Source: Candidatus Rhodobacter oscarellae (GTDB lineage: Bacteria > Pseudomonadota > Alphaproteobacteria > Rhodobacterales > Rhodobacteraceae). From it: DNA of 64,000 nt. Position 1 is the stretch's first letter, and every line of letters begins with the position of its first letter. The stretch is from positions 1,694,151 through 1,758,150 of the forward strand of contig NZ_LFTY01000002.1 in the NCBI RefSeq assembly GCF_001078595.1, written 5' to 3'. The notes under the pieces are model-generated. The model was given only the letters and a program-made list of their open reading frames with translations. It did no database searches and had not been told where the DNA came from. Below, piece after piece: positions 11,830 to 46,640 of the stretch. The position numbers and the translations under genes are program-made.

Positions 11830-11895
11830 CGGACGCGCGGCGCGCCGCGAAAGCACCGCGCGCTCTGTTAACCATGGCGCGCGGGACGCAGATGC

Positions 11896-11933
11896 CCGAC
11901 AGAAGTCCGACGTTTTGCCGACAAATGTCCGAC
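11896..11933 (+). repeat. CCGAC pentamers at exact 11-bp spacing (four copies)
   Basis: CCGAC occurs at 11896, 11907, 11918 and 11929, each separated by six variable bases. The array lies in the convergent gap between the ABC ATPase and sensor kinase stops. The same 11-bp-phased pentamer occurs five times before fdhD (46452-46500). One helical turn of spacing puts all copies on one face of the DNA, which suggests a protein-binding array, but no function is known to me. Confidence 0.7.
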
Positions 11934-12013
11934 GCCGGATTCTCCAATTAATCAAGGCCTCACGGGCCGATTCGCGCGCCCACGCGCCCTGCGCGTTTAG
12001 ATTTCGGTAAGAC

Positions 12014-44979: not shown

Positions 44980-45587
44980 GGTGCGTGGTCCCTTAGGATC
45001 GTTTCAGCCGCCAGCATATCCTCGGGCGTGTTGATGTTAAAGAACGGGTCGAAAGGCTCGGCGGGAAAGGCGGCAGTGGCTGCGTTGTGCTGATCGGTCC
45101 AGGCGACGATCTTGCGCAGCCCCCCGCGCAGGGCGCCGCGCAGGTCCTCGCGCAATGCCACAGGCCAGAGCCCAAAGGTCGGGTGGCGCATCATGCCCTT
45201 TTCTGGGTGAGGCGTGGCCGCCAGCACGATCCCGTCGCCGGCATTGGCCAGCTGCGCCACCAGATCGGTCGGAAAGAAGGGCGTGTCAGCGGCCACGGTC
45301 ACAATGCGCTGCGCGCCCTGACCCGCGGCCCAATCGAGCCCCGCCAGCACCCCGGCCAAGGGGCCCGGATGGTCCGGCTCGCTGTCGGGCAGCACCGGCA
45401 GGCCGAACCCGGCAAATCTTTCCGGGTCCCCGTTTGCGTTCAGGGCGAGCGCGCCGACCTGCGGCGTCAGGCGTTCCAACACACGCTCCAGAACGGGCCG
45501 TGCGCCCAGTGTTTTCAGGGACTTGTCCCCGCCGCCCATGCGCCGCGCCAACCCGCCCGCAAGGATCACGCCCAGGATCTCAGCCAT
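44976..45587 (-). CDS. mobA: Molybdenum cofactor guanylyltransferase
   Basis: A 203-residue nucleotidyltransferase. The GTP-binding LAGGLARRMGGGDK is at 9-22 and the metal-binding segment TVAADTPFFPTDL near 98. It joins GMP to molybdopterin to give MGD, the cofactor form used by formate dehydrogenases and DMSO reductase-type enzymes. It overlaps fdhD by 8 bp. Confidence 0.93.
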   Translation of the reverse strand: MAEILGVILAGGLARRMGGGDKSLKTLGARPVLERVLERLTPQVGALALNANGDPERFAGFGLPVLPDSEPDHPGPLAGVLAGLDWAAGQGAQRIVTVAADTPFFPTDLVAQLANAGDGIVLAATPHPEKGMMRHPTFGLWPVALREDLRGALRGGLRKIVAWTDQHNAATAAFPAEPFDPFFNINTPEDMLAAETILRDHAP

Positions 45588-46449
45588 CAGCGCTCTTCCT
45601 GCGATGCTTCTTACCTTCGTCGGGGATGGCGTCCAGATCCGCGTCCCAGACCAGCCGCTCGGCGCCCGAGAGGCAGACGAACCGCTTGCCGCGCATCCGC
45701 CCGATCAGCGTCAGCCCGATCTCGCGGGCGATCTCCACGCCCCAGGCCGTGAACCCCGACCGCGACGCCAAGGCCGGGATCCCCATCTGCGCGCATTTAA
45801 TCACCATCTCCGAGGTCAGCCGCCCGGTGGTGTAGAGGATCTTGTCGCCCGCCTCGGCGCCTGTTTGGAACATCCAGCCCGCGATCTTGTCGACGGCGTT
45901 GTGACGGCCCACATCCTCCATATAAACCAGCGGCTTATCCTGCTGGCAGAGCACGGTGCCATGGATGGCACCCGCCTCAAGATAGAGGCTCGGCGCGGTG
46001 TTGATTTGCTGCGCCAGGGCATAAAGCCAGGAGGTGCGCAGCTCTGCCTTGGGCAGCACAATTCCCTCCAGCCCCTCCATCATATCGCCAAAAACCGTGC
46101 CCACAGCGCAGCCGGAGGTGCGCGTCTTGCGCTTGAGCTTCTCCTCGTAATCCGTTGATCTTGCAGTGCGAACCACGACCGTCTCTAACTCGTCATCATA
46201 GTCGATCCCGGTGACGTCATCCGAGCGCTGCAGCATGCCCTGGTTCAGCAGGAACCCCACCGCCAGGTAGTCGGGGTAGTCGCCGATGGTCATCGCCGTG
46301 ACGATCTCTTGGCTGTTGAGATAGATCGTCAACGGGCGCTCGGTCACCACGTTCAGAGGCACTTTCGCCCCGGTATGGTCCATCCCCTCGACCGCGCGGG
46401 TCAGGCGCGGATCGGCTGGGTTGGGGGCAATCAAAAGCGGCGATCTCAT
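45580..46449 (-). CDS. fdhD: Formate dehydrogenase accessory sulfurtransferase FdhD
   Basis: A 289-residue protein. FdhD passes sulfur to the molybdenum cofactor of formate dehydrogenase. I chose the ATG at 46449, with GGAAAG 7-12 bp upstream; the longer frame runs through the 11-bp repeats of the leader. The active-site loop reads TSGCAVG (C114), so the second cysteine of the CxxC motif known from E. coli is replaced by glycine. MEDVGRHNAVDKI near 200 and the C-terminal GFTAWGVEIA are conserved. No formate dehydrogenase genes are in the window. Confidence 0.9.
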   Translation of the reverse strand: MRSPLLIAPNPADPRLTRAVEGMDHTGAKVPLNVVTERPLTIYLNSQEIVTAMTIGDYPDYLAVGFLLNQGMLQRSDDVTGIDYDDELETVVVRTARSTDYEEKLKRKTRTSGCAVGTVFGDMMEGLEGIVLPKAELRTSWLYALAQQINTAPSLYLEAGAIHGTVLCQQDKPLVYMEDVGRHNAVDKIAGWMFQTGAEAGDKILYTTGRLTSEMVIKCAQMGIPALASRSGFTAWGVEIAREIGLTLIGRMRGKRFVCLSGAERLVWDADLDAIPDEGKKHRRKSADG

Positions 46450-46451
46450 GC

Positions 46452-46500
46452 GTCGGCTTTCCGTCGGACCTGTGTCGGGCATATGTCGGGCATATGTCGG
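46452..46500 (-). repeat. Five CCGAC pentamers at exact 11-bp spacing in the fdhD leader
   Basis: On the fdhD strand, CCGAC recurs five times with six bases between copies (plus-strand GTCGG at 46452, 46463, 46474, 46485 and 46496; a degenerate sixth at 46507). Three units also share ATATGC spacers. The array ends two bases before the fdhD ATG and includes its ribosome-binding region. The same phasing occurs at 11896-11933. Confidence 0.85.
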
Positions 46501-46640
46501 GCATGCGTGGGACCGGCGCCCGGCCCCGCCCGCAGCACAGAGTTTCTCAGCCACGCGGGCATTGCAAGGAAATTCCTATGCAAAACGCGCCGATATGCCG
46601 AGACGCATTTGTGAGGCGCGCCGTTGTTGCTGAAACCGGG

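Follow-up and report, generated by a model that had tools for sequence, protein, structure and literature searches.

Five CCGAC pentamers, each exactly 11 bp from the next, stand against the start codon of fdhD and belong to a genome-wide class of phased arrays that lies almost entirely between genes, carries in its larger form TTAA and GANTC motifs at fixed distances, and recurs in part of the Rhodobacteraceae. We lean slightly towards reading these CCGAC-N6 arrays as docking sites on double-stranded DNA, where three to five protein monomers would line up along one face of the helix in an extragenic role. In the open literature, judged by titles and the openings of abstracts (most subscription journals lay outside this scope), we found no description of arrays of this kind in Rhodobacteraceae.

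The fdhD array and its genome-wide class

Read on the minus strand from 46500 to 46452, the array is CCGAC-ATATGC-CCGAC-ATATGC-CCGAC-ACAGGT-CCGAC-GGAAAG-CCGAC-GC-ATG. The exact units announced by the original prediction are all present: each of the four unit-to-unit spacings is exactly 11, and the array spans -51 to -3 from the fdhD ATG (46449..46447), ending 2 bp short of it. The gene was identified by Pfam FdhD-NarQ (E 4.2e-75) and is followed, on the same strand, by mobA-, mobB- and moeA-type genes. An open frame extends upstream beyond the ATG; we rejected it as coding because the alignments of 29 FdhD relatives begin at query residue 3–8 of the ATG-start reading, which places the array in the fdhD leader. 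A simple scan for a sigma-70 promoter or an intrinsic terminator at fdhD gave none. Upstream of the array an imperfect inverted repeat, TTGCAAGGAAATTCCTATGCAA (window 46562–46583), was noticed by eye and is a possible operator of a different regulator.

Table 1. Features of the two arrays in the window, that is, the whole 64,000-nt stretch of DNA analysed
Feature	Position	Strand	Description
fdhD array	46452..46500	-	five exact CCGAC units, 11-bp spacing; unframed type, against fdhD start codon
fdhD	45580..46449	-	289 aa, FdhD-NarQ family
sister array	11896..11933	+	four exact CCGAC units; framed type, convergent gap
left frame motif of sister element, TTAACCAT	11868..11875	+	same letters as the CtrA half-site printed in PMC3692519
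right frame motif of sister element, GATTC (GANTC)	11969..11973	+	offset +35, as in 43 of the 94 arrays

A sister array lies elsewhere in the window, in a gap that by eye separates the ends of an ABC-transporter-like gene and a histidine-kinase-like gene; the right TTAA of this element is degenerate (TCAC at 11960), and a search of a plasmid collection gave no match to it. The two arrays supply all seven CCGAC-N6-CCGAC pairs in the window, where 0.29 were expected and the maximum in 100 shuffles was two, bearing out the original claim that they share a repeated pattern of one-helical-turn spacing. The genome-wide search suggested at the time showed the pattern to be much larger than the window: a search of the 5.04-Mb genome for CCGAC three times over at 11-bp steps gives 172 matches, its reversed control none, and part of the family carries the pattern as well. 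Overlapping matches within an array are counted separately here, and the 172 correspond to approximately 100–110 arrays. Distances between same-strand CCGAC words, counted over 800 kb of contig C1, show peaks at 11, 22 and 33 bp. When every pentamer was scanned at periods 6–23 over 400 kb of the genome (masked N runs set aside), CCGAC was the top word at period 11, with 18 hits against 4 for the next. The top words at periods 10 and 13 had one hit each, and period 12 was led by other words (CCGCC 11, CGCCG 7).

The frame, the spacers and placement between genes

To describe the class we used 94 arrays, all of which have, by selection, three to five exact consecutive units. Alignment of 22 elements resolves a larger module consisting of GCGCG, GTTAACC, about 30 bp, the array, ATTT, GTTAA and GATTC, with a mean column identity of 72% and runs of invariant columns; TTAACCAT is the left frame motif in nine of these 22. 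With the end of the final exact unit taken as the zero point in all 94 arrays, a left TTAA at -66/-67 was found in 62 (random intergenic points, 2.2%), a right TTAA at +26 in 61 (24–28 allowed, 57 at exactly +26; background 1.4%), and GANTC at +35/36 in 58 (33–39 allowed; background 1.7%). All three parts are present in 49 arrays and one or more in 68, and these fixed distances suggest a composite with other proteins. Seventeen arrays, that of fdhD among them, lie no more than 30 bp from a gene, and none of the 17 has the TTAA frame. C1 has 100 GTTAAC sites, and for 33 of them an array is no more than 150 bp away. Within the arrays the spacers follow the rule R-N-W-W-N-N: positions 3 and 4 are A/T in 94% and 98% of cases in a genome of about 63% G+C, in 89% and 95% in the related genome G081, and in 69% and 94% in the other genera sampled. 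Three of the four fdhD spacers fit W at both positions.

Placement relative to genes was scored with a simple codon-usage gene caller of our own. The sample comprised C1 up to 2.2 kb from its end, some 218 kb of contig C2 in which the window lies, and a further 60 stretches chosen around arrays in a list for C2; that list omits arrays with C at a fixed following place (e.g. C2 185870, 786242 and 1481567), and six listed sites near the C2 end fall outside the sample. All but one of the 94 arrays were intergenic, the exception lying in a called gene just ahead of the next start. The 93 divided into 29 convergent, 29 tandem sense, 27 tandem antisense and 8 divergent, with no strand preference in the tandem gaps. 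The sampled 1.26 Mb supplied 458 control gaps of 100 bp or more, of which 83 were convergent, 245 tandem and 130 divergent. Arrays are depleted from divergent gaps (8/93 vs 130/458, p = 2e-5) and enriched in convergent ones (29/93 vs 83/458, p = 0.007) in a comparison where some arrays sit in gaps shorter than the control's, genes are called approximately and some of the long gaps probably contain genes that the caller missed. The depletion argues against ordinary promoter operators. It was not seen in the small G081 sample (22 arrays: 12 tandem, 4 divergent, 2 convergent, 2 inside genes, 2 at an edge); 64 array records from other genera, including a few duplicates, were tandem in 34 cases, convergent in 13, divergent in 3, inside in 5 and at an edge in 9. 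Close to start codons (30 bp or less), arrays mostly run in the sense orientation in the host genome (9 vs 1) and less clearly so in other genera (6 vs 4), and may have a sense-strand role there. The ten array-neighbour proteins that we identified with Pfam are of mixed kinds; neighbours include lpd and ABC transporter, aldolase, aldehyde dehydrogenase, cold-shock and carboxyltransferase genes, and no recurring regulator gene stood out by eye from the cross-genome neighbour list. A 68-aa cold-shock (CSD) gene adjoins arrays both in the host genome (L351) and in G081 (L367), in gaps called divergent.

Distribution among relatives and sites kept between genera

In a survey of 394 genomes of the family, 52 had any match, some plainly to simple repeats (e.g. 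G149); at least eight matches were found in 23 genomes and fewer than eight in 371. The reversed control gave 0–3 matches per genome except in G228, G365 and G393 (L377–L400), which carry CAGCC arrays at 11-bp spacing, with 74, 22 and 34 matches, respectively. TTAA flanks these CAGCC arrays on both sides at 8/8 loci in G393 and 6/8 in G365, a likeness to the CCGAC elements, and at 2/8 in G228, whose eight loci overlap and cover four sites. Among the GTDB matches listed, array carriers include Roseovarius, Shimia, Salinihabitans, Pseudooceanicola, Celeribacter, Sulfitobacter, Litoreibacter and Sedimentitalea; unrelated taxa are listed as well, and many of their matches look like simple or coding repeats. 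At 46 Rhodobacteraceae loci of other genera among the matches listed, TTAA was present on the left in 21, TTAA on the right in 21 and GANTC in 17 (raw counts without background, in looser windows than those used for the host genome). The strict frame GTTAAC-N4-GATTCG occurs 19 times in the host genome, seven times in G081 and at most twice in each of 118 other genomes.

Four-unit CCGAC arrays at 11 bp also appear, among the matches listed, in Bacteroidales/Paludibacteraceae MAGs (L122, L125, L127, L128, L132, L144) and in Chitinophaga skermanii (L047, L101, L133); several of the Bacteroidota MAG arrays have AGTCA/GGTCA-type spacers, and the arrays of this phylum are possibly an independent system or a coincidence. 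We rejected the idea of a universal array with other words on the basis of two scans: no period-11 array was found in 200 kb of G062, and 400 kb of G004 (partly masked) gave a single period-11 hit of another word. The same 400 kb of G004 contains a 12-bp-period repeat rich in AGCCT/CAGGC words, with 76 hits each (L401–L420).

Shared sites were found by comparing array-neighbour proteins across genomes. An array at the tail of an ABC-ATPase gene lies 16 bp from it in both the host genome (L328) and G081 (L359). Others occur at the tail of a gene that we take to be of livG type (C1:373315 and Litoreibacter L082, 9 and 8 bp), in the lpd leader (L331 and L048, 28 and 27 bp), in the leader of a presumably SoeB-like gene (L324 and Salinihabitans L072, 9 bp in both) and in the gap between DeoC and aldehyde dehydrogenase (Aldedh) genes (L319 and G081 L357). 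A further array, in a carboxyltransferase gap, is shared by three genomes other than the host, two of which are near relatives. At the shared sites the strand relation is kept and the distance to the gene is similar. The two versions of the ATPase-site array, ACCGACGCAATACCGAC... and CCCGACGCAAGTCCGAC..., one from each genome, have their units in register and differ in their spacers. Since these orthologous pairs were found through the CCGAC pattern, the identity of their units is biased, and position, strand and distance are the freer evidence. Of 39 array-neighbour proteins in G081, six match neighbours of host arrays, five of them at more than 65% identity, at three sites; the other G081 array sites are not shared with the host.

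A freer test set gene coordinates against listed array coordinates, a procedure that misses arrays with fewer than three exact units. The ATPase-tail array was present in 3 of 11 scored genomes: G081, which had served to pick the site, and G382 and G286, which had not and in which the array is antisense to the gene, as in the host. It was absent from the other eight (G001, where the gene is in two pieces, G168, G227, G234, G136, G197, G303, and G351, where the gene copy is partial). The SoeB-like leader array was present in 2 of 12, namely G227 and G299, the latter having served to pick the site, and absent from G001, G142, G168, G193, G197, G286, G311, G351, G358 and G382. Some array sites are kept across genera, though patchily.

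The fdhD site is not among them. No array was seen at any of 29 other fdhD loci read directly, leaving the host genome as the only carrier among 30, or in any of 13 further genomes that bear arrays and have an FdhD at 72% identity or more (G001, G052, G072, G142, G168, G193, G227, G234, G286, G303, G311, G351, G358). For scoring, the array listing of the genome or the locus itself had to cover the place; G052 and G072 belong to both sets and were read directly. Conservation in close relatives, which together with an effect on expression was to decide the original prediction, is found for the class of arrays, at some cross-genus sites, and not for the array at fdhD, whose absence elsewhere points to a recent gain here or to frequent loss.

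A proposed docked protein and the alternatives

The exact helical-turn spacing, the strictness of the word, the A/T-rich middle of the spacers and the indifference to orientation together favour a signal read at the level of DNA. The candidate reader would be one sequence-specific protein, or a small set of paralogues, whose DNA-binding domain would enter the major groove at every helical turn to read CCGAC, with the A/T-rich middle of the spacer (positions 3–4) turned toward the minor groove. Three to five monomers could then sit side by side on the same helix face. Across the genome at large the arrays are extragenic elements, frequently near gene ends, and their likely role is that of a boundary, a roadblock or a chromosome-organising site. 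GANTC is the target of CcrM, and proteins bound at the frame might build a composite assembly for which CtrA and CcrM are the obvious candidates. The fdhD array is of the smaller, unframed type found at gene boundaries. A protein bound there would cover the DNA 3–51 bp upstream of the ATG, including the ribosome-binding region, and the simplest effect would be less or blocked transcription into fdhD, by repression or as a roadblock.

Known systems offer partial parallels. In PMC3798270, most ArcA sites consist of three to five direct repeats, mostly 11 bp centre to centre, and the CCGAC arrays resemble these ArcA/OmpR-PhoB sites in being direct repeats of that spacing. They differ from them in number and place (about 100 extragenic sites, few in divergent gaps) and in their fixed TTAA/GANTC frame; the word is given as different, with the ArcA word itself outside the comparison. 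CarH, according to PMC9304148, binds three or four tandem 11-bp direct repeats along one DNA face, its repeat being nnnnTnnACAn and its known operators promoter sites; by eye, CCGAC-RNWWNN units do not match that repeat as given there. TTAACCAT is a CtrA half-site, the full site being TTAA-N7-TTAA (PMC3692519 and PMC6180460). The left frame of the CCGAC element resembles such sites in nine of 22 elements. Compared with CtrA sites as given in these papers, however, its TTAA pair is about 92 bp apart (-66/-67 and +26), its central array is unrelated, and it mostly lies away from divergent promoter gaps. A likeness to the GANTC sites of Alphaproteobacteria lies in the GANTC at a fixed place. OmpR-type sites are usually found at promoters, and such placement is not what the gap classes of the host genome (which are not mapped promoters) indicate, divergent gaps being depleted and convergent ones enriched.

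The dispersed, extragenic copies could instead be selfish. REP and BIME sequences are dispersed extragenic repeats with a palindromic stem-loop, and the CCGAC arrays resemble them in having about 100 dispersed copies, 93/94 of them intergenic and few in divergent gaps. The framed element might accordingly be a MITE/REP-like mobile or gene-converted repeat tolerated near gene ends, and arrays of the fdhD type decayed or partial copies; its patchiness among genera, its lineage-specific sequence and the fact that most sites are not common to different genera would fit. We nevertheless regard this as rather unlikely, since diverged copies keep their motif blocks at fixed spacing (mean column identity, invariant runs and frame offsets as above), some cross-genus sites keep their strand relation and similar gene distance, and the elements have phased direct repeats where REP/BIME have a palindrome or hairpin. 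Action in the mRNA, raised by the original prediction, fares worse. C-rich words at 11-nt spacing and the predominance of sense arrays near start codons in the host would suit an RNA-level signal, e.g. an mRNA leader or a Rho loading site with pyrimidine-C at steps of about 11 nt. But the sense bias at starts is slight in other genera, and tandem-gap arrays occur in both orientations, whereas Rho rut sites would lie in the sense orientation downstream of genes. No conserved structure was detected either: RNAalifold predicted 0 conserved pairs in the 22 framed elements, the predicted fold of the fdhD leader is no more stable than those of shuffled sequences (z 0.50; sister array, -0.34 and -0.38), and Rfam at the gathering score finds two tRNAs only in the window, the arrays being without match. 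We consider an RNA signal improbable.

We hold it equally improbable that the arrays simply bend DNA through phased A/T steps with no specific reader. The A/T at spacer positions 3–4 recurs every 11 bp as bending would have it, but bending needs neither a strict CCGAC nor the CAGCC of other genera, and the pentamer stays the same where A-runs and T-runs replace each other. Least probable of all is the operator for a regulator of formate or molybdenum metabolism that was originally proposed at fdhD. The array does cover the fdhD leader, ahead of molybdenum-cofactor genes, and another unframed site precedes the 4Fe-4S SoeB-like subunit, which from its name we assume to be a molybdoenzyme partner. 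Against this stand the mixed kinds of the other array neighbours and the lack of an array in the 13 array-bearing genomes and at the 29 directly read fdhD loci.

The docking reading can be extended, although we would sooner doubt the extension than assert it. A dedicated DNA-binding system of some roseobacters might use one-turn arrays, joined with CtrA-like and GANTC sites in a fixed composite, to mark extragenic sites, from several dozen to about 100 in each genome. Its word would drift between lineages (CAGCC in some, CCGAC with spacers of several types in others), with the 11-bp ruler and a good part of the frame retained. The system would be chromosome-organising or cell-cycle-linked, the code co-evolving with its reader. 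If so, some members of a widespread marine group would mark their chromosomes with a phased element built from several proteins; the arrays would be ready bait for finding the reader protein, and the lineage-specific words a natural experiment in the joint change of a DNA code and its reader.

Finally, we looked at the arrangement of arrays along chromosomes. Replication-strand polarity was not significant in an adjacent-array test in any of eight sets (p 0.12–0.61). By eye, array strand on contig C1 of G227 appears replichore-like, with 10/11 arrays minus before 1.3 Mb and 8/10 plus after; the adjacent-array permutation test there was not significant (p 0.22). Spacing was no more regular than random in G286 (fraction of simulations as regular, 0.36) and G227 (0.55), and regular spacing is not claimed. 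In G000 it was more even than random: the fraction as regular was 0.009 for the first 2.34 Mb of C2, 0.020 for C1 and 0.006 for the 75 listed C2 sites.
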